DNA from: Setophaga petechia
Lineage: Eukaryota > Chordata > Aves > Passeriformes > Parulidae
NCBI GenBank assembly: GCA_024362935.1
Contig: JANCRA010000117.1
Span: forward strand, 806,001-870,000
Direction: 5' to 3'
DNA: 64,000 nucleotides
A program made the position numbers and the translations under genes. Shown here one piece after another: positions 23,957 through 59,900 of the stretch (the stretch's first letter is position 1; each line of letters opens with the position of its first letter). Under the pieces are notes generated by a model. It searched no databases, was not told where the DNA came from, and worked only from the letters and a program-made list of their open reading frames with translations.

Positions 23957-26900
23957 CTAAAAATCAGAGTAAAAGGAGGAAAAGGTGTTGATATTTATGG
24001 ATATCTTGACATGGACACAAAGCAGAGCCTGAAAGAAGAATGGAAGATGTCCCAGGCTCCTCAAAAAGGGAAAAGCCACATTATCTGCTTTATTTTCTAA
24101 CTGGAATTCAAGGCCAATTTTTTCTCTGGAATGGAAGTAGGTTTGGATCTCAATCCCAGTTTTACTGGGCACAGCTTTCCTGTGTCTCCTGGAGACTGGT
24201 TTGGTTTTTATCAGGGTTTTTAGGTGTTGCACAGGATGGGATTCTAACCTGAGGTGTTCTCAGGGGGAGGGAGGGCAGGTGAGGATTCTGCTCCTGCTGT
24301 GGAAACAGCCCAAAAGCAGGGATCTCCTGCTGCTGGTCTGCCCCAGGGAATTCTGCTTTCACCCAGGGAATTCTGCTTTTATCCAGGGAATTCTGCCTTT
24401 CCCCCAGGGAATTCTGCTGTTTTTTCCAGGGAATTCTGCCCTTCTCCAAGGAATTCTGCTTTTCTCCAGGGAACTCTGCTTATACCCAGAGAACTCTGCT
24501 TTTATCCAGGGAATTCTGCCTTTCTGCAGAGATTTCTACCTTTCTCCAGGGAATGCTGCTTTTTTTTCCAGGGAATGCTGGTTTTTCTAGGGAATGCTGG
24601 TTTTCCTAGGGAATGCTGGTTTTTCTAGGGAATGCTGCCTTTCTGCAAGGATTCCTGCCATCCCCAGGGATTCCTGCCATTCTCCAGGGAATCCTGCCAT
24701 TTCCTAGGGACTCCTGCCATTCTCCAGGGAATGCTGTTTATACCCAGGGATTCCTGCCATCCCCAGGGATTCCTGCCTGCCATCCCCAGAGATTCCTGCC
24801 ATTTTCCAGGGAATGCTGTTTATACCCAGGGACTCCAGCCATTCTGCAGGGATTCCTGCCTGCCATTCTCCAGGAATGCTGGTTATACCCAAGGATTCCT
24901 GCCATCCCCAGGGACTCCTGCCTGCCATGCCCAGGGATTCCTGCCATTTTCCAAGGATTCCTGCCTGCCATTCTCCAGGGAATGCTGTTTATACCCAGGG
25001 ATTCCTGCCATCCCCATGGATTCCTGCCATTTTCCAGGAAATGGTGTCTATACCCAGGGATTTCTGCCATTCTCCAGGGACTCCTGCCATTCTCCAGGGA
25101 ATGCTGGTTATACCCAGGGATTCCTGTCATTTCCCATGGATTCCTGCCATGTTCCAGGGAATGCTGTTTATACCCAGGGATTTCTGCCATCCCCAGGGAT
25201 TCCTGCCTGTCTCCAGGGATTTCTGCCATTCTCCAGGGACTCCTGCCATTCTCCAGGGAATGCTGGTTATATCCAGGGATTTCTGTCATTCCCCAGGGAC
25301 TCCTGCCATCCCCAGGGACTCCTGCCATCCCCAGGAACTCCTGCCATTCTCCAGGGATTCCTACCTGTCTCCAGGGATTCCTGCCATCCCCAGGGATTCC
25401 TGCCATCCCCAGGAACTCCTCCCTGCCATCCCCAGGAACTCCTGCCTGCCATCCCCAGGAACTCCTCCCTGCCACCCCCAGGGATTCCTCCCTGCCATCC
25501 CCAGGGCCTCCTGCCACCCCAGGGTGCTCAGGGCTCCCAGCCAGGCTCACCTGGGATGGTGTTGTCCAGCACGAAGGCCACGCAGCCCCCGACGAACATG
25601 GCCGTGGTGAGCAGCACGTTCAGCACCTGATCAATGCCTGCAATTCCTGCAGCAACAGGAGAAACCTGCTGGGAACTCATCCCCACATCCCCCCAGCAGC
25701 TCCTGGGCCTGGGTTTGCTCTCCAAGGGCTCTGGGGGGTTGGTGCAGAACCTCCCCCAGGGCCCCAGCACGGGACATTGTTCCCCAAAAATGCAATTTTC
25801 AGGAAGTCTCAGCTGCTCACAGAAATGGCACAAAGCACCATCTCAGCTCCTGCTGCAGGCACAGCTAATCTGAGCTAGGCAGAAAACTGTGGAGTGCAAA
25901 GGAGAAGCAGTCAAACTGTAAAATCAACTTTTATATAATAATTCCTTTATAAATATTTGATACAATTATTCAAAAAATAATAATTATTATTTTAATAAAT
26001 AATCCTTTCTGTAAATCTTTACTTTTCAAAGGGGCAAGGATTCACAGCCCCACCTATGGAAGAACACTGCATTAACCACATAAAGCTTGAGGGATCTGCT
26101 TTTCTAACCACTTACAGCAGGACAGATATGCCCTTAAATCCTGGGCTGAAGGCATAGTGGAAAGAAAAGTCAGTTAATATTTGCTTTAAAAACCCCCCAG
26201 ACGAGCCCACAGCAGTGAAATATTTCCTTTGAGTCCATGTCTGGTGACACACACTGGTGTGAGCATTGCTGAGGGTCACATGAAAACAGAAAAACTTCCC
26301 AGGGAACTCCTCAAAGCTAAAATTCCATCAACAGCCTGCAGGGAAATCCACTGAAATTAAAATTCACACCCAGAACACGTCTGAGGGACAGAAAGGTTCA
26401 ACCCCCAAACAATTCCCCACCTGGAACACTCCCTGCAGGTCTCAGCCTCCCAAAAAATTCTCTGAACACACACAGAGCTTGTCTGGACCTACAGCCTTCC
26501 CTTGGGTTTTTCCCTCCAAAATTTGGGGTTTTTCCTCCACCATTTGGGGTTTTTCCTCCACAATTTGGCATTTTCCTCCACGATTTGGTTTTTTCCTCCC
26601 TAATTTGGGTTTTTCCTCCCTAATTTGGGTTTTTCCTCCACCATTTGGATTTTTCCTCCACCATTTGGATTTTTCCTCCACCATTTGGGTTTTTCCTCCA
26701 CCATTTGGGTTTTTCCTCCACAATTTGGTTTTTTTCCTCCACCATTTGGGTTTTTCCTCCACCATTTGGGTTTTTTCCTCCATAATTTGGTTTTTTTCCT
26801 CCCCCATTTGGGTTTTTCCTCCACCATTTGTTTTTTTCCTCCACAATTTGGGTTTTTCCTCCCCCATTTGGGTTTTTCCTCCACCATTTGGGTTCCCCCT

Positions 26901-29900
26901 CCTGCCCCTCTGTCCCTGGTGTGTTTCCCAGGTGAGCCCGGGGCAGAGGGGCAGGTGGGCAGCAGCAGGGGCAGTACCTGTGACCAGGGGGTTCTGTCTG
27001 AGGTAGCTGGGCAGCACCAGCCCGAAGAAGATGGAGAAGCCCAGCACGAAGAGGTTGCGGGAGGAGTTGAGGTCGATGAACTGCAGGTTGGACAGACCCA
27101 CGGCCGTGATCATCCCTGCACACCACAAACACCCACATCAGCCTCTGGGCACTCCTCCTCTTCAAAAACCATCCAAACCCAGCAAAATACCCCTGCAGAT
27201 ACCCCCAGCACATTTGGGATAATTTGTCAGAAAAGTGCACGGGGTGTTCCCAACAGCACAGCCACTGCTTTTCCTTCTTTTTCCTTTTAATCTGTATTTT
27301 TAGAAACAGCAAACCTGAGAATCAGTGCACATGAAACCACAGAGCACTGCAACCAGAGAGAGAAGATTGTGGTAGATTATTAGGAAAGGAAGATTGTGGT
27401 AGATTATTAGGAAAGGAAGATGATGGTAAATTATTAGGAAAGGAAGATGGTGGTAGATTATTAGGAAAGGAAGATTGTGGTAGATTATTAGGAAAGGAAG
27501 ATGTTGGTAGATGATTAGGAAAGGAAGATGTTGGTAAATTATTAGAAAAGGAAGATGTTGGTAGATTATTAGGAAAGGAAGATGTTGGTAGATTATTAGG
27601 AAAGGAAGATGTTGGTAGATTATTAGGAAAGGAAGATGTTGGTAGATTATTAGGAAAGCAGTGCTGCTCCTTCTCTGGGGATTTCCTTCTGTTAAGCAAG
27701 CCAGTAAACACCACTTTGTGGTTTATATATATTTCTATATATTTTATCTCTGTGATTTATATATATTTTATGTTTTATTTATATATATTATGTTTTATTT
27801 ATATTTATATATATTTTACATAAAAGGATCCCTCTTTTTCATTACAAAACATGCCTGGAGGAGCACACAGGTTCCTATTATGAAATAGGAGACAGAGAAG
27901 ATTGTGGTAGATTATTAGGAAAGCAACGTTACTCCTTCCTCTTGGGATTTCCTTCTGTTAAGCAAGCCAGTAAACATTGCTTCCTGTTTTATATAGATAT
28001 TTATATATATTTGTGTTTTATATATACACATATAATGTATTTATATTTATATATAATGGTACATTTATACTTATATGTATTTCATGGTTTATTTATATCT
28101 ATAGATATTTCATGTTTTATTTAATATATATTATGCTTTATTTCCATTTATATATAATGGTAGATTTATATTTTATATATATTTATTGGTTTATTATATC
28201 TATAGATATTTCATGTTTTATTCTATATATATTATGCTTTGTTTCTATTTATATATAATGGTAGATTTATATTCATATATATTTCATGGTTTATTCATAT
28301 CTATAGATATTTCATGTTTTATTTATTATATATTATGTTCTATTTATATTTTTATATATATTATATTTTATTTAATATTTATTATATATTATGCTTTATT
28401 TATATTTATATATATTTCACACAAAAGACCCCATCTTTTCCATGCCACAGGGTGCCTGCAGCAGCATAGAGGCTCCAGTTGCCAGCACTGCTCAGAGCAG
28501 CAGCCAGCCCAGCACAGCCCGGCCCAGCCCAGCCCGGCCCGGCCCAGCTCTGCCCCAGCCCAGCCCAGCTCCGCCCAGGCCGGCCCAGGCCAGCCCGGCC
28601 CAACCCAGCCCAGGCCAGCCCAGCCCAGCCCAGGGCCGGCCCAACCCAGCCCATCCCAGGCCAGCCCAGCCCAGGCCAGCCCAGCCCGGCCCGGCCCGGC
28701 CCCAGTCCAACCAAGCCCAGCCCAGCCCAGCCCAGCCCAGCCCAGCCCAGCCCAGCCCGGCCCAACCCAGCCCAGCCCAGCCCAGCCCAACCCAGCTCAG
28801 CTCAGCCCAGCCCAGCCCAGCCCAGCCCGGCTCAGCCCAGCCCGGCCCGGCCCAGTCCAACCCAAGCCCAGCCCAGCCCAGCCCAACCCAGCTCAGCTCA
28901 GCCCAGCCCAACCCAGCTCAGCTCAGCCCAGCCCAGCCCATCCCAGCCCGGCCCAGCCCAGGCCAGCCCAGCTCAGCCCGGCCCGGCCCAGCCCTGCCCT
29001 CACCGAACAGGGTGCAGAAGAGCGCGCCCAGCACGGGGGTCGGGCAGCGAGGCGAAGAGCGCGCTGAACTTGCCCACCATGCCCAGCAGCAGCATGAAGG
29101 CAGCTCCGTACTGGATCACCCTGCGGCTGCCAACCTGCGGGCACAGCACAGGGCACGGGTCAGGGCACCCTGCCAGCCCCACCTGCTCTGCTGCTTCTGC
29201 AGGGGGCTGGCACTGCAGGTCCCTCCTGGAGCCTGGGTGATTACACTCACAGGGGTATATGTGTGTGTATATATATGATATATACCATTATATATATAGT
29301 ATAGTGTATATATATTTTTATATATATTTATATATATACACACATATATAAAAATATACATATTATACTATACTATATATAAAATATATATATTATACTA
29401 TACTATATGTATTATACTACACCATATATATTATACTATATATACTATATACACAAATATATATTATACTATACAATATGTATGATACTATATTATACTC
29501 TATATTATACTATATATATTATATATACTATAATATATATAGTATATATATTTTAATATATACTTATATACACACACATATATAAATATATATATTATAC
29601 TATACTATATATAAAAACTATATATTATACTATATTATACTATACCATATATATTATACTATACACTATATACGATACTATATTATACTATATTATACTG
29701 TATATTATAGTATATATATTATATATACTATAATATATAGTATATATTTTTAATATATACTTATATATATATAGAAAAAAATATTATACTATATTATACT
29801 ATATTATATATATTATACTATATTATACTATATTATATATATTTGTGTATATATACTATATACACAAATATATATTATACTACATTATACTATATATGAT

Positions 29901-32900: not shown

Positions 32901-35900
32901 ACCTGGAACCACTGAAATTCAGGGCTCAGGCTCCAACACACCTGGAAAACACTCTGGAGTTGTTTCCTGAGCCTCAGATCCCCACATTCTTAAACTGAGG
33001 AAATTTATATTAAAAATTCAGATAAAACTTAAGAGTTGCTCTGTTTCTAAACTGCATTCCACTTGAGTCTTAGATCCCCACATTCTTAAACTGAGGAAAT
33101 TTTCTTAAAAATGCAAATAAAACTTCAGAGCTGCTCTTTGTTTCTAAACTACATTCCAGGTAAATCTTAAGATCCCCACTTTCTTAAAATGAGGACATTT
33201 ATATTAAAAATTCAGATAAAACTTCAGAGCTGCTGTTTCTAAACTGGATTCCAGGTGAGTCTTAGATTCTCACTTTCTTAAAATGAGGAAATTATATTAA
33301 AAATTCAGATAAAACTTCAGAGCTGCTCCTTGTTTCTAAATTGCATTCCAGGTAAATCTTAAAGGTAAATCCACTTTCTTAAAATGAGGAAAGTATATTA
33401 AAAATTCAGATAAAACTTCAGAGCTGCTGTTTGTAAACTGCATTCCAGGTGATTTTGACAACCTCAATTCCAGAACCAGTCTGAGGTTCTTTCCCTGTGG
33501 AAATTGTGCTGGTGACTCCCACAGACTCCAGCAGGAATGGGACTGGGATTCCAATGTGACACAACAGCCCCAGGTGCCATTTCCACCCTGCATTCCAGAC
33601 CCTTGGTCCTTGTGTACCGAAGTGACCAAAATGCCACATTTCACCCCAGAGCACAACCCTGCTTATCCAAAAGGGGGAAAATCCCCAAAATCCCAGCAGG
33701 CTGGGCCAGTGGAGGCAGCTGAGGCTGGCACTGACCTGTTGATGGCGTGGATGGGAGGAGGAGGAGCACAGGACAGCCTGGCACAGGCGTAGTAGTCGCC
33801 GATGGACTCGATGATGCTGGCAACCACAGCACTGAGCATGCCAATCACTCCTGCAGCAGAGATGGTGGGCAGCCCCCACTGGACTGTGGAGAGAGGAAAC
33901 TGAAACATTCCTGCCCCACAAATGGGATCCAGGACATCTCTGGCTGCCCTGTGGGCTGGTGTTTGCAGGGGTGTTGGATGAGGGAAGAGATGGCAATGTT
34001 GACTCCATGTTTCAGAAGGGTGATTTGTTATTTTATGATAAATGTTATATTAAAACTATACTAGAAGAATAGAAGAAAGGATTTCATCAGCAGGCTGGCT
34101 AAGAATAGAAGAATGATAACAAAGGTTTGTGACTGACTGAGACAGTCTGGACAGCTGGGCTGTGATTGGCATTAATTACAAACAACCACATGAGACCAAT
34201 CCCAGATGCTCCTGTTGCATTCCACAGCAGCAGGTAACCTGGTAATGCATTGTTTGCATTTTGTTCCTGAGGCCTCTCAGCTCCTCAGGAGGAAAAATCC
34301 TAAGGAAAGGATTTTCCATAAAACATGTCTGTGACAGTCCTGGAGTGCCCAAACCCCTGCCAGGGGGCTCAGAGACCCTGGCACAGAGCCATTTTCTCCC
34401 CCTGAGCCCATTTTCTCCCCCTGAGCCCCTTTTCTCCCCCTATTCCCATTTTCTCCCCCTGATCCCATTTTCTCCCCCTGAGCCCCTTTTCTCCCCCTAT
34501 TCCCATTTTCTCCCCCTATTCCCATTTTCTCCCCCTGATCATATTTTCTCCCCCTGATCCCATTTTCTCTCCCTGATCATATTCTCTCCCCCTATTCCCA
34601 TTTTCTCCCTCTATTCCCATTTTCTCTCCCTGATCATATTTTTCTCCCCCTATTCCCATTTTCTCCCCCTATTGCCATTTTCTCCCCCTGATCCCATTTT
34701 CTCCCCCTGATCCCATTTTCTCCCCCGATCCTATTTCCTCCCCCTGATCATATTTTCTCCCCCTATTGCCATTTTCTCCCCCATTCCCATTTTCTCCCCC
34801 TATTCCCATTTTCTCTCCCTATTCCCATTTTCTCCCCCTATTCCCATTTTCTCCCCTATTCCCATTTTCTCCCCCTGATCCCCTTCCCAGCTCCATTCCC
34901 TGCCCTGGACAGGCTCCAGCCCCTCCATGTCCTTGTGCTGAGGGCCCATGGGGATGGAGGGGGCCCTCCCCAGTGCCCAGCTCTGTTTATTTATCTTTGG
35001 TGGGAACAACAAACCCCCCTCACTCTACACAGCCTGGCAAGTTCAAGGAGATGAAAGGAGCAAAGGAACAATTGCCAAACCAACTGCTTTGATCACACTT
35101 GGAAAAATCCCAGGGAATCATAAAACCTCACTAAAAAAAAAAATAAAAAAAAATTCCTCCTGTTCAGGAATCAGGAATTTGAGCTACAGCTTGTGAGAAA
35201 ACAATCCTGGCCAGTCAGGCAAATGGCACTGTGTTATTATTGCTCCAAAAAGTCACTTTGGTCACAAGTTTAGTCGACCAAAGAGGATGGCAACAGCCAG
35301 CTCTGATCACTGCACAAACACCTCCCAGCTCCACATTTCTGTGGTAGAGAAAATAAGATTAATTTAAGCCTGCAGAAAAGCCTGGCAGGTTTTCCACAGC
35401 AATTGCCTCGATGCTTTTATCTCTTTGAAATAGATGAGCCCCCTGCAACAAAGGGATCTTCAGTCACCCAGGAGTGAATGAACCTCACCAACACAAATGG
35501 GCTGATCAGGGTGGAGAAGTTTTCCTCCTCCTCTTTCCCAAAAGCCTCTGTTCTTCATCTGCTGCTTTAGAAGTGGTTTCTTTTAAGAACCAAAGCATTT
35601 GGGAAACCACAATGAAGCTGCCTCATCCCAATGTGGTGGCACAGCTGATAATTCCCGTATTTCTATTTTAAAATAATATTCCCTAATTACCCTGTTAATT
35701 TCTGAAGGGTGAGGGATTATTTCTCACACCATAAACCCAGCCTTTAGCAGCTTTAAACTTAGAGCTGGCCAACATAAAAACACCTCCAGAACGTTGGGTG
35801 AAGTGTTTGGTGCTGTCCTGTAAATGATTTCACTGCTCTCTGATAAGCAGGGCCTGGCATTCCCTGACTTGCCCGTGCCAGCAGTGCCTTGGCAAGTCAG

Positions 35901-38900
35901 GGCATTCTCCTGCTATGAGCAGCTGTGCTCACCCTCAGTGGGTGTGTTTGGGGCAGGGAAGTGCAGCAGGCTGGGAGGAACTCCCCACAGAAGTGATTCT
36001 TTAGACAATGAGAGCCAGGGAATCCAGCAGAGCTGTGGAAACCTGTCCCTGGCACAGTGCAGCACCACCAGCACTGCCAAGGATTGATAAATCAGTGATG
36101 ATCTCCAGGTTACAGGGGCAGTCACTTCTGTCAGGAGTCACCCAGACCAATCCTGCAAAGGGCAGCTCCAGAACCCCAGCCCTCCTTGGGTGAGACCTTA
36201 GGGAATCAGCTGAACACAAGGAAAACCAAAAAATACACACCAGCAGGCAAGGAGAGTGCTGTGTGCTGGACTGTGGAGTGCTTTGGACTGGGAGGGACCC
36301 TCAGAGCCACCAGCAGGGACCCCTCCCACTGCCCCAGGCTGCTCTGAGCCCTGTCCAGCCTGGGACTGCCAGGGATGGATCATCCACCACCCAAAGGTTA
36401 TGGATGGATCATCCATATCACCCAAAGGTTATGGATGGATCATCCACCACCCAAAGGTTATGGATGGATCATCCATATCACCCAAAGGTTATGGATAGAT
36501 CATCCATATCACCCAAAGGTTATGGATGGATCATCCACCACCCAAAGGTTACGGAATAAACCCCAGACAGAGCCAGCAGAGCTGTGGAACAGGAGCAATG
36601 GCCCTGCTGAGCTCCTGAAGAACCAGAGCAATGGCCCTGCTGGGTTCTGGGGAACCAGGGCTATGGAATAAACCCCAGACAGAGCCAGCAGAGCTGTGGA
36701 CCAGCAGCACTGGTCCTGCTGAGCTCCTGGGCAACCAGGGCCATGGATAAGCCACTGAGAGCCAGCAGAGCTGTGGAACAGGAGCAATGGCCCTGCTGGG
36801 TTCTGGGCAACCAGAGCAATGAATAAACCACTGAGAGCCAGCAGAGCTGTGGAACATGGAACAGCAGCAATGACACTGCAGGCCCCAGGAGCAGCACACT
36901 TACAGGGATAGGGCACCTTGAACAGCAGCACACTTACAGGGGTAGGGCACCTTGAACCACGGTGCCACCAGCAGCACTGGGCACTTACAGGGGTAGGGCA
37001 CCTTGAACCAGGGTGCCACCAGCAGCACTGGGCACTTACAGGGGTAGGGCACCTTGAACCAGGGTGCCACCAGCAGCACTGGGCACTTACAGGGGTAGGG
37101 CACCTTGAACCAGGGTGCCACCAGCAGCACTGGGCACCATGACCAGCACACTTACAGGGGTAGGGCACCTTGAACCACGGTGCCACCAGCAGCACTGGGC
37201 ACTTACAGGGGTAGGGCACCTTGAACCACGGTGCCACCAGCAGCACTGGGCACTTACAGGGGTAGGGCACCTTGAACCACAGTGCCACCAGCAGCACTGG
37301 GCACCATGAGCAGCACACTTACAGGGGTAGGGCACCTTGAACCAGGGTGCCACCAGCAGCACTGGGCACCATGAACAGCACACTTACAGGGGTAGGGCAC
37401 CTTGAACCACGGTGCCACCAGCAGCACTGGGCACTTACAGGGGTGGGGCACCCTGAACCAGGGTGCCACCAGCAGCACTGGGCACTTACAGGGGTAGGGC
37501 ACCTTGAACCAGGGTGCCACCAGCAGCACTGGGCACTTACAGGGGTAGGGCACCTTGAACCAGGGTGCCACCAGCAGCACTGGGCACTTACAGGGGTAGG
37601 GCACCTTGAACCACGGTGCCACCAGCAGCACTGGGCACCATGAGCAGCACACTTACAGGGGTAGGGCACCTTGAACCAGGGTGCCACCAGCAGCACTGGG
37701 CACTTACAGGGGTAGGGCACCTTGAACCAGGGTGCCACCAGCAGCACTGGGCACTTACAGGGGTAGGGCACCTTGAACCAGGGTGCCACCAGCAGCACTG
37801 GGCACCATGAGCAGCACACTTACAGGGGTAGGGCACCTTGAACCAGGGTGCCACCAGCAGCACACTTACAGGGGTAGGGCACCTTGAACCAGGGTGCCAC
37901 CAGCAGCACACTTACAGGGGTAGGGCACCTTGAACCAGGGTGCCACCAGCAGCACTGGGCACTTACAGGGGTAGGGCACCTTGAACCAGGGTGCCACCAG
38001 CAGCACTGGGCACTTACAGGGGTAGGGCACCTTGAACCACGGTGCCACCAGCAGCACTGGGCACTTACAGGGGTAGGGCACCTTGAACCAGGGTGCCACC
38101 AGCAGCACTGGGCACTTACAGGGGTAGGGCACCTTGAACCAGGGTGCCACCAGCAGCACTGGGCACTTACAGGGGTAGGGCACCTTGAACCACGGTGCCA
38201 CCAGCAGCACTGGGCACTTACAGGGGTAGGGCACCTTGAACCACGGTGCCACCAGCAGCACTGGGCACCATGAGCAGCACACTTACAGGGGTAGGGCACC
38301 TTGAACCAGGGTGCCACCAGCAGCACTGGGCACTTACAGGGGTAGGGCACCTTGAACCAGGGTGCCACCAGCAGCACTGGGCACTTACAGGGGTAGGGCA
38401 CCTTGAACCAGGGTGCCACCAGCAGCACTGGGCACCATGAGCAGCACACTTACAGGGGTAGGGCACCTTGAACCAGGGTGCCACCAGCAGCACACTTACA
38501 GGGGTAGGGCACCTTGAACCAGGGTGCCACCAGCAGCACACTTACAGGGGTAGGGCACCTTGAACCAGGGTGCCACCAGCAGCACTGGGCACTTACAGGG
38601 GTAGGGCACCTTGAACCAGGGTGCCACCAGCAGCACTGGGCACTTACAGGGGTAGGGCACCTTGAACCACGGTGCCACCAGCAGCACTGGGCACTTACAG
38701 GGGTAGGGCACCTTGAACCAGGGTGCCACCAGCAGCACTGGGCACTTACAGGGGTAGGGCACCTTGAACCAGGGTGCCACCAGCAGCACTGGGCACTTAC
38801 AGGGGTAGGGCACCTTGAACCACGGTGCCACCAGCAGCACTGGGCACTTACAGGGGTAGGGCACCTTGAACCAGGGTGCCACCAGCAGCACTGGGCACTT

Positions 38901-41900
38901 ACAGGGGTAGGGCACCTTGAACCAGGGTGCCACCAGCAGCACGCCGCGCCGCGCGTCCGTGCGCGCGTAGAAGCCGTACTTGGAGCTGTCCGGGGGGAAC
39001 ACGTCCGTCACCGTGAAGATGAAGCACAGCAGCCACGACACCAGGATGGCCAGGATGATCTGGGGACAGCAGCACAGGGGCACTGAGACCACGGCTGCCA
39101 CTCCAGGGGTGCTGCACAGCCCTGAGCCTGAGCTGGGGGAGATGGATCTGTGGGGAGCTTTGGGGGCTGCACGGGAGGTTTGTATGGAAAATACATGGCA
39201 TGTACAGATACTGCATGTAAAATACATGATATATACAGATACTGCATGTAAAATACATGCTATATATAAATACTCTATGGACTTGTATGGAAAATACATG
39301 GCATGTACAGATAGTGTATGTAAAAGACATGATATATACAGATACTGCATGTAAAATACATGATATATATAAATACTCTATGGACTTGTATGGAAAATAC
39401 ATGGAATATACAGATACTGTATGTAAAATACATGATATATACAGATACTGCATGTAAAATACATGCTATATATAAATACTCTATGGACTTGTATGGAAAA
39501 AACATGCAATATACAGATGCTGTATGTAAAATACATAATATACAGATACTGCATGGATTTGTATGGAAAAGACATGCTATAGACAGATACTGCATGTAAA
39601 ATACATGCTATATACAGATACTGTATGGATTTGTATGTAAAATATTTATTATATATATAGATACTGTATGCATTCATATGTAAAATCCATATTATACATA
39701 TTGTATGTAAAATATATACTATATATAGATACTGTATGTACTCATATGTAAAATACATATTATATATATAGTATGTAAAATATATACTATATATAGATAC
39801 TGTATGTATTCATATGTAAAATACATATTAGATATAGAGATTGTATGTAAAATATATACTATATATAGATATTGTATGTATTCATATGTAAAATCCATAT
39901 TATACATATTGTATGTAAAATATATACTATATATAGATACTGTATGTATTCATATGTAAAACACATATTATATATAGAGATTGTATGTAAAATATATACT
40001 ATAGATACTGTATGTATTCATATGTAAAATATATAACATAAATAGATGCTGTATGTAAATAGCATGTAAAATGCATACCATATATGGGTACTGTATGTAA
40101 AATGCATATGATATATAGATGCTGTATGTATTCATATGTAAAATACATATTATATATAGATACTGTATGTAAATAGTATGTAAAATAAATACCCTATACA
40201 CTGTATGTAAATAGTATGTAAAATGCATCCTATACATGATACTGTATGGAAAATACATCTTATATTTAGATACTGTCTGTATCTACATATAGATACCATA
40301 TGTGTCAAAACCAACAACATCCCACCTCCACCAAAACAGTTTTTGTTTTTGTTTTTTGGGTTTTTTTTTTGCCTAAGGAAGAACAAGTTCAAGGACTTAC
40401 AGGGAACATCTTGAAAAGCTGCAGCCTGTATGCTGTCCATCCTTTCTTGGATTTATAAATGGGCAGGGGAAATTTGACATTTCTGGCATACTGGGAGAAC
40501 AACAGTACTAGGAAAATAGTCCTGAGGAAAAAAAGGAGGATGAGGAGGGTGGGACAAGAGAGAAATGTCATTAGCACCAATACATGAGAAATTCTTTTTA
40601 GCACAACCCTCTTCAGACCCCTTGGATGCAGAATTTCAATTTAATTAGAAGTCAAGGCAGCAAAAGGATTAAAATTATTATTCCTCAAATGCCAAATTTG
40701 AATTCTGAAGAGCTGCAAAACTCAGCAGCTGCAAGGAGATAAATGGATCAGGGGCAGGCCCAGGCTGAAGGGGATTTTCAGTTTAAACTCCTGTGCTGCC
40801 CCTTCTTTCCTCAAACTCCACCTGTGGTCCAGGGCTGTCTGTAAAGCACAGAACTTGCTGCCAGCACCTGGCAAGAAACAGGAAAACTGGAGGGCTGTGG
40901 ACAGGAATTTTCACATTTCAAAATTTGCATCACACTTCAAAGCACTTGGGGAAATTTCTGTCAGGGAATTTTTTTCTGTTCTTCAGAATAATTTTTTTTA
41001 ATACAAATCTTTCACTAAATAGCTGCAAATGAAGCAGAATGGAGCCCAAGCCCCAAGATTTGCTGCCAGTGCAGTCACCAGTATTAGACATCTTGATTAT
41101 TATTCATTTCCCACCATCAATGAAACTGCCAAGCTCCTCCAGACACCAAAAATTATTTTTTACAGCTAAAATAAGCCCCCACTGTCCTGAAAAATCAGAA
41201 TTCAGGGCACGTTGCTCAATCCTGAATGAGCAATTCTCAATTCTCAACCCAGCTCAGCTCTGCAAGGGCCTCCCAAAGACTGGAGCTGTCTGAAGAAGCA
41301 AAGCTCTGCTGAAATCTGAGATTATGTTTTTATCAGCTGACTTGAAAAATGAAGAGAGGATTTTCAGCCTCTCTTCTGCCCCGGATCAGACACAAACCAG
41401 TTTTCCTCTCCCTCAGTCTCCAGGAAAAGGAGGGGCAATTACAGCCCTCAGCAGCACATGGGAAAAGCAAAATATCCATCTTTTCCATGCAGGAAACCCC
41501 AGAATCCCCCCAAAACCCACCAGGGGCTCCCCTCCCTCCCACACCAGCCCTGTGGACAGGGAGCTTTGGATTTGATTTAGCACAGAGCTGTAAAAAAATA
41601 CAATATTCAATTACTGCAATGAGTTTTCCACTGGCTGCACGGCAGAGGGGCTGTGGAACAGCACCAAAGCCTTGAATGCCCCAGGAAAATCTGGATAAAC
41701 AGGGAAATCAGGAATAACTGCCCCTTTTATGAATGGAATAAAGCAGCCATGGAACAAGGCAGGCCAGGAAATTGGGAATCCTGCAGCTCCCAGAGGCCCC
41801 CAGGTGATTCTGCAGAAATTCAGGACCTTGATCTCCTCAGAATGTCCAGGACAATTCCAGGAGCCACATCTCACTGAGTGGCTCCCACAGCTGTGGAGCT

Positions 41901-56900: not shown

Positions 56901-59900
56901 GGCCAGCCCAGCTTTGGTGCTGGGGACAGAAATGGCACCCCAGGGATGCCCCCTCCAGGCACAGCCTCCCTAAGCTGAGCTTTGCTTCCCTTTGAGCCAC
57001 CAGGGCCTGATTTTGGTAGAGGAGAATTCCAGCCCTGGGATAAACCCCCTGGGAATGTCTGAGCACAAATCCCCTGGGAATCCAAACCAGGTGTAGCTTT
57101 CCTGGACAAAACCCTGTGCACCAAACCCTCCAGGTTTCACCAGGGTGGGATCTGAGGAGGGGATTCCCTTCCTTCCTTCCTCCCCTTGGGAACAGCTCCT
57201 CTTTTATTCTGGTACCAGTTCACTCCTGAGGGTTTCTGTCCTTGTGACTGAGAGGAGGAGCTGGGAGGAGGAATCAGGATTTTTCCACCAGGATTTTTTG
57301 CCAGATCCCACCTCTGAAATGTGAAATATTTGCTGTGGGATCCTGGCAGGTTTCTCTATGAAATCCAGCTGAACTCCAGCGTCAACAAGATGAGTGTGGA
57401 CAACCTGGCCACAGTGATGGGGGTGAACCTGATCAGGCCCAGGGTGGAGGACCCTGCAGTCATCATGAGAGGTAAAAGGGACCCTGGAGGAGATGGAATA
57501 TTTTGAGGCATATGGAGGAATTTCAATATCCTGGAGGATATTTCAATTTTGAGGCATCCACAGCCTCAGAATTTCTGTGCTGCAGCTGAAAGAAAGGCAG
57601 AAATGTGCTGGGGCCCAGGGCAGAGCCCAGCTGAGTGTTTGCTGGGCTGTAAATGTGTTTGTGGTGACAAAAACCCCCTCAGGAACTGCCAAAGTGACAA
57701 AACCTCCCCTCATGGAGTTCAGCAGACTCAGGGAATTGCTGAGGTCATCTCTGAGCTGCTCAGGGCAGGAAGGTGTAAAATCCTTCTTGGGGGAGCAGAG
57801 GAAACTCAGGGAAATGTGGGTGCTCCTTTACTTTTATGCTGGATTATATATATATATGTATATATATATATTTTTTTTTTTTACTTAGGGATGGGATAAC
57901 TGAGAGTTGTTTTAAAATTTTTAATTCAATTTTTAGTCTTCTGTGAAGAGTGAGATAATATAGATGTTATAATTTACATTATTACAATTAGAAGTAAACT
58001 ATTTTTAATGACAATATATTTTAAGTGATTTTTGCTCTATTAGTTTTACAATAGAGCAAAATAATTTAATTTAATAATTTTAATAATTTAATAATTTAAA
58101 ATTACTTTTTGTGGGTCTTATTATAAAGTATTTTTTTAGTTCTATTTTTTAAAAGTATTTAGTCTTATTTGTAAGGCTATTTTTTGAAACTTATTTCCAG
58201 TTTATTTTTTTTCAAGATTTGTTTTATTTTATGGTATTTTTCAGCCACTTAAGGTTTGTATGTAGATGTAAACTCTGCGAGTCTTCTGTCAGGCATTGAG
58301 AATTTTCCACAAACCCATTTCCCACACTTTTACTCACTCCATTTACTTCATTTGGCTTTTTGGTCCCGCTCATTTTCTGCCCCACCTCCATTTCAGCCAG
58401 CTCAAAGCCTGGGGGTGCCAGGGGTCCCTGGCTCTGCCCTGATGCTCTGTGCTCCCCCAGGCACACCCCAGGTGCAGAGGGTGATGACAGTGATGATCAG
58501 CGACCACCAGGAGCTCTTCCCCCCCTCCAAGGACGAGCCTCCCTCCCCACCTGCCCCCAAAAACGAGAAGAAAGCTCCTGTCCCTCGCAGCTCCGTGGGC
58601 TGGGGGGCTGCAGAGGACCCCAGGGGCTCCACCCCACGGCACACGGTAAGCCTAGGCTCATTAAATAAATTAATTAATTAACCTACGTTCATTAAACGTG
58701 TGGTTAATTGTGGCAGGCTCTGACAGGTCAGAGAGCCCTAAAAGCATTTGCTATTTATGGGTTCAAAAGCTGTGTCTGTCACCCCTGGAATATTTACATC
58801 AGGAAAATGATGTGGATAAACTTTCCACTTTCCTGTGGAAAATCTGCTGCTCTGGGGAATATGAAAACTCCCAAAGCTTTTTGGCCCTAGCACATGAAAC
58901 CTTTCCAGCTCAGGCTGGTGAGGGGAAAACACTGAGGGTTAAAGGCTTTTCTTCAAAGGGATCCCTGCAAAAATCATAAATTTGGTGCAATTCAAAGTGG
59001 ATTTTAATGAAGAACTGTGGCCAGCATGTCCCAATGCGCCCTTGGTAAAGCTCTGTGCCCTGGCTGCCCCAGGGCTCTGTTTTGCAGAGGGATCACCCCA
59101 ATTTCAGCAGCAGCCCTGGCCCTGCTGCCACCTCGAGCGTCCCTGGGGAGGACTCGGAGCCCACGGCCACGCTGGGAACGTGGAAAACCCAGCCAAGGAA
59201 AAGAACCCAGACTCTCCCCAGCAGGAAACCCTTCCTGGCAGCCCCAGGGGACAAGGGCAGGAGTGATGCCCTGGCCAGTGACTTCTGGAAGAGCAGCCCG
59301 CGCCCCCTGGCCTGTGAGGGACACAAGAGAACCTTGTCCCACGATCTCTTCAAGCTGCTGGACCTGCACAGGGCTGCAAGCTGTGACAGCAGCGTGGCAG
59401 AGAGCGGGGAGGGCAGCGGCTCCAGCCCCAGCCCTGCCAGCAGCGCCTCTGAGAAGGAATTCCTGCCCTGCTTCAGCCCCTGCCACGAGCCAAGGGAGCC
59501 TGGCAGCCCCAGCAGCAGCCCTGCTGAGGAGCCCCGAGCTGAGCAGCACAGCAGGGAGTTCCTGCAGGGCGTGATCCACAAGCTGGAGAAGGATTTGGAG
59601 GAGCAGAGGAGTGACTACGAGGGGCAGGTGGACAGGTAACTGCAGGAGCAGCTCGTGGTGTGACAGCAAACACTGCAGATGGTTCACCAGCAGGTCAGGC
59701 AGGATGTCACAGCAGTGATCCGTGGTAAAACACAGCTGTTAGCAGGCAGGTCAGTGTGCTGCACTGCATGAGCTGTGGGTGATGGATTATTCCAACATCA
59801 GTGCTCTGTACCTCTTACCCACCATGCAGTGGCACTGCAGTGTTCCTGCAGCCCTCTGCACAATTCCTGCCATAATTCCTGTTATTACCATGAGATTGGA

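Follow-up and report, generated by a model that had tools for sequence, protein, structure and literature searches.

The SLC23A2 locus and its array of splice donors

The stretch of DNA analysed here (the window) comprises 64,000 nucleotides of the Setophaga petechia genome, positions 806,001 to 870,000 of contig JANCRA010000117.1 (assembly GCA_024362935.1). Its minus strand carries 11 exons of SLC23A2, one of which runs directly into a tandem array of 5′ splice sites. The 11 exons lie between 46.6 and 23.7 kb, are arranged in order and cover residues ~160-649 of human SLC23A2; a search of the window with the human sequence gave no match for the N-terminal exons. The exon at the array (38903-39059) has 157 nt, that is, 52 amino acids plus one nucleotide, with 96% identity over these 52 residues to human SLC23A2 and an E value of 6e-17 against solved SLC23A1 chains. 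In the C-terminal region 281 of 282 amino acids are identical to Junco hyemalis SLC23A2 models, when one exon is read with an extra C skipped. These are orthologous SLC23A2 exons in the right order, in agreement with the gene and strand proposed in the first-pass annotation of this DNA. The extra C lies in a C-run near 29040 and shifts the frame of the exon at 29004-29134 (minus strand; ends SLPDP), which is intact in the Junco models; it is probably a consensus error and possibly a real lesion.

The codons of the array exon run to VPYP, with one nucleotide left over. The next exon (33736-33883, minus strand, ending HAINR), with its acceptor AG just upstream of 33883, begins TC-CAG-TGG, giving FQWGLP, and the coding frame is normal across the junction formed with the donor at 38902. 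The read-through open reading frame of the array exon matched 0 Pfam families, and the window gave 0 Rfam matches. The array exon and the neighbouring exon at 40401-40520 share the donor sequence CCT/GTAAGT.

The last 40 nt of the exon (38903-38942) form the first unit of a 2,046-bp tandem array (36897-38942, minus strand), which fills 40% of its ~5-kb intron. We counted 39 donors with a perfect GTAAGTG, from 38902 down to 36903, the same number of U1-type sites as noted in the first-pass annotation. The main 51-bp unit indeed consists of 40 exonic and 11 intronic nucleotides. Its repetition about 38 times, as first described, was only partly borne out: 26 of the 38 inter-donor intervals are 51 bp long, and the others measure 65 bp (seven), 46 bp (four) and 34 bp (one). 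Since the widest gap between neighbouring donors is 65 bp, no unit lacks the GTAAGTG heptamer.

The 38 units fall into ten sequence types (A-J). The earlier description of authentic exonic sequence before each donor is exact for 25 of them (types A, C, D, G and I), in which the 40-nt exon part is identical letter for letter, and needs correction for the other 13, which are changed or truncated: types B and E (10 units together) carry one change, types F and H (one unit each) carry two, and type J (one unit) is truncated. Both changes in the single type F unit would alter the protein. All donors are alike from -3 to +7, and the 40 nt upstream are nearly so. CACTTAC (GTAAGTG on the minus strand) occurs 41 times in the window, whereas 100 shuffles gave 4.56 on average and never more than 11, and a 29-mer from the repeat core has 37 occurrences in the whole assembly (1.22 Gb, 687 contigs), every one of them in the SLC23A2 array. 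Within the array, 680 bp match exactly at an offset of 630 (38194-38873 with 37564-38243, together spanning 37564-38873), which is either a recent block duplication or an assembly error.

Reading frame, predicted exposure and known relatives

Each of the 39 donors was spliced in silico in turn to the next exon. Only donors 1-8 (38902, 38851, 38800, 38749, 38698, 38647, 38596 and 38545; span 38545-38902, minus strand) keep the spliced frame, stop-free, adding 0-7 copies of a 17-amino-acid block. Donor 9 leads to a frameshift, and every one of donors 10-39 meets a stop codon, TAA, at nucleotide 561 of the exon (38498-38496); this TAA lies within the GTAAG of donor 9, which is here read in a different frame. 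The frame is broken by the first pair of 46-bp units (38454-38545), which limits the open part of the ladder. A frameshift or early stop thus results from 31 of the 39 donors, and we rejected the idea that each of the donors is a coding option. Messenger RNAs of this kind usually go to nonsense-mediated decay, the expected fate of transcripts using donors 9-39.

The predicted exposure of GUAAGU in the 39 array copies has a median of 0.086 (range 0.044-0.48; 0.054 for the first donor), against 0.001-0.051 at nine other SLC23A2 donors. Folding is therefore predicted to hide the array donors no more than other donors of the gene, though they are also predicted to be mostly paired.

The closest known relative of this arrangement is found in human IFI6 (6-16, G1P3), where a donor-like unit of 12 bp is repeated about 26 times, beginning near the end of exon 2. 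As in IFI6, the SLC23A2 array is a tandem repeat of minisatellite size (34-65 bp) with a 5′ splice-site consensus in its unit; it overlaps the exon end, and its first donor is the exon's own. In contrast to the 12-bp IFI6 unit, that of SLC23A2 is mainly 51 bp long and includes 40 nt of real coding exon, and the array offers 39 donors, the first eight of them in frame by whole 17-amino-acid blocks. The IFI6 element has been described as a minisatellite supplying several splice donors (Turri, Cuin & Porter 1995, NAR 23:1854; the case is also cited in PMC2915984), and two of its downstream repeat units are reported to be used as alternative donors, with three mRNA species as the result (PMC4526556). 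The initial assertion that no vertebrate precedent had been described consequently has to be withdrawn: the SLC23A2 array belongs to a known kind, the splice-donor minisatellite, of which it is a variant with real coding exon in its unit. Besides IFI6, no second splice-donor minisatellite appeared among the papers listed in searches of an open-licence library.

With tandem alternative splice sites (TASS; PMC8055015), too, a single exon has alternative 5′ splice sites that lie close together. Those of TassDB2, however, lie 2-12 nt apart according to an excerpt of its description (PMC2878309), a definition that excludes the spacings of 34, 46, 51 and 65 nt between the SLC23A2 donors, which number 39 and were made by tandem duplication.

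Origin, occurrence in other species and competing explanations

From the last donor onwards, the intronic sequence is GTAAGT-GTGCTGCT-CCTGG, and the exon holds GTGCTGCT-GG; the intronic copy of this 8-mer occupies 36890-36897 and the exonic copy 38935-38942 (both minus strand). Once the array is removed, the two copies are 46 nt apart, exactly the length of the 46-bp unit (type C, present four times), and the type C units join exactly at the GTGCTGCT microhomology. We infer that a duplication at these 8 nt is the simplest start of the array, and that the units of 65 and 51 bp would have arisen later than the 46-bp unit.

By hand count, about seven distinct substitutions are spread over 65 unit positions, none of them in the donor heptamer. 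The probability that none of seven substitutions falls in the seven donor positions by chance is 0.45, and we therefore rejected the perfect donors as proof of selection. The perfection of the donor in every unit is what is expected of a recent expansion, and selection is not needed to explain it.

Homologs were taken from the best 120 of 3,911 matches, with 29 new rows from the best 120 of 3,943 matches in a further set (149 in all). Among the matches listed, the 17-amino-acid repeat was found in 0 of 149 homologs, and the PW-PYP motif occurs once in 135, is absent from 14 and is present twice in none. A protein search with the repeat region gave no match at 1e-3, a weak test, as the ordinary exon alone also failed this threshold. 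The Todus and camel models, which seemingly read slightly past the exon end, continue VPYP-CKY with no repeat, implying that the junction is old and that the array is derived relative to these two.

In nine passerine models (eight species) the 3′ half of the array exon is kept in three and its 5′ half in four, the preceding exon in five and the following exon in all nine; the array exon is intact in the Pitangus, Prunella and Poecile models only. This is as expected if other songbird assemblies break at a repeat here, and at most suggests a trouble spot common to songbirds. Bird assemblies are documented to lose exons and genes falsely through GC content and repeats (PMC9516821), and the array may explain why its exon is frequently lost from songbird gene models.

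We favour, with a probability of about 0.62, the explanation that the array is a minisatellite of recent origin, mostly neutral, that was seeded at the edge of an exon, with the first donors probably doing most of the splicing. A tandem duplication between the 8-nt repeats of the exon and the intron start would have copied the last 40 nt of the exon together with its donor, and slippage and unequal exchange would then have enlarged the array until it held its 39 donors. The copying of a 630-bp block would be a recent event. The donors would be intact through the youth of the copies, not through selection on each. We judge that the first donors dominate splicing, because the gene still has to yield a normal protein, which is not possible from 31 of the 39 donors; exon-size limits also favour the first donors. 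Through exon definition, the first one or few donors may carry nearly all productive splicing. Occasional use of later ones would give in-frame 17-amino-acid insertions (donors 2-8) or a frameshift or stop and decay of the transcript (donors 9-39). The array would then illustrate how a minisatellite can start on the edge of an exon, probably via microhomology, and capture a splice site.

Several points weigh against this explanation. The distal GTGCTGCT 8-mer may be the beginning of a truncated unit and not the ancestral microhomology. Between comparable donors the intron-proximal site is favoured according to PMC6002489, by a route given there as unknown; if this preference held among equals here, the later donors would win and a neutral array would be harder to sustain. 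As cluster outliers, the passerine models form a sample with a bias towards broken models, and the 65.6% GC of the array exon can by itself break short-read assemblies. Moreover, other exons are missing from seven of the nine passerine models, and from four of the six that lack the array exon. At this array the limits on exon size, which favour the first donors, clash with the intron-proximal preference, which favours the last. Alike in their core, nearly alike in the 40 nt of exon before it and differing mainly in position, the 39 donors constitute a natural test of the position rule.

A functional ladder, in which several donors are used and the amount of working transporter is tuned by the length of the array and by where its 46-bp units lie, is unlikely. 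In its favour, productive donors come first, eight of them with 0-7 inserted blocks, and the next 31 are not productive; all share the sequence from -3 to +7, and nearly share the upstream 40 nt; they are predicted to be as exposed as the nine other donors of the gene, or more so; and repeat units of IFI6 are reported to act as alternative donors (PMC4526556). Against this stand the missing sign of selection to keep the donors, the lack of the 17-amino-acid repeat in all 149 homologs among the matches listed, and the exposure itself, since a site with a value of 0.086 would still seldom be open. The more specific proposal of a copy-number-tuned rheostat, with donors 1-8 yielding a working or length-graded transporter and the other 31 yielding decay-prone transcripts, appears quite improbable. 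If it were true, array length and the frame-breaking 46-bp units would set the dose of a vitamin C transporter, and this dose could change in one generation through unequal exchange.

We regard it as improbable, too, that a real array of much smaller length was extended by the assembler through duplication of the 630-bp block. The 680 identical bp at offset 630 lie at the place to be expected of a collapse or expansion error, the extra C near 29040 suggests local consensus errors, and repeat-rich avian microchromosomes remain hard even for long reads (PMC9516821). However, the array contains ten unit types, and ~1.4 kb of it remains after one 630-bp copy is removed. Moreover, a length of 2 kb is modest for long reads, and an assembly of 1.22 Gb in 687 contigs suggests that long reads were used. 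A role as a U1 sink or anti-polyadenylation element, in which the numerous U1 sites in the first part of the 5-kb intron would block early polyadenylation or slow splicing, we consider very improbable. The 39 U1-type sites and the 40% of the intron given over to them would suit it, and U1 is an established suppressor of cryptic polyadenylation. One U1 site normally suffices, however; only positions +1 to +6 pair fully with U1 and the exon end CCT pairs poorly; and a 5-kb intron is unremarkable. The recent, mostly neutral minisatellite remains our preferred explanation.

The repeat-rich setting

Tandem arrays detected by Tandem Repeats Finder (TRF) make up 39.6% of the window (78 merged arrays), and 47.6% of the intronic positions of SLC23A2 lie within 10 bp of one. 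The donor array shares its tandem structure with these local minisatellites, of which the gene and the window are full, and differs from them in that it alone overlaps any of the 11 mapped SLC23A2 exons. An array close to a donor is not in itself unusual in this gene: three of the ten SLC23A2 donors, that of the array exon included, lie within 10 bp of one (P 0.93), and we rejected such proximity as a distinguishing feature.

Two further arrays, at 28504-28999 and 24343-25543, start within 10 bp downstream of the donors of the VGSR and GIDQ exons, with no overlap of the exons. The Geospiza model lacks the 3′ part of the VGSR exon. No tandem array lies within 10 bp of any of the 11 acceptors (nearest, 121 bp; P 0.0008 in a post-hoc comparison within one gene, 23728-46646), and arrays thus seem to be kept away from 3′ splice sites in SLC23A2. 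On the plus strand, an open frame of 196 amino acids with a charged end (59049-59636), for which Pfam gives no family, is perhaps an exon of a neighbouring gene.
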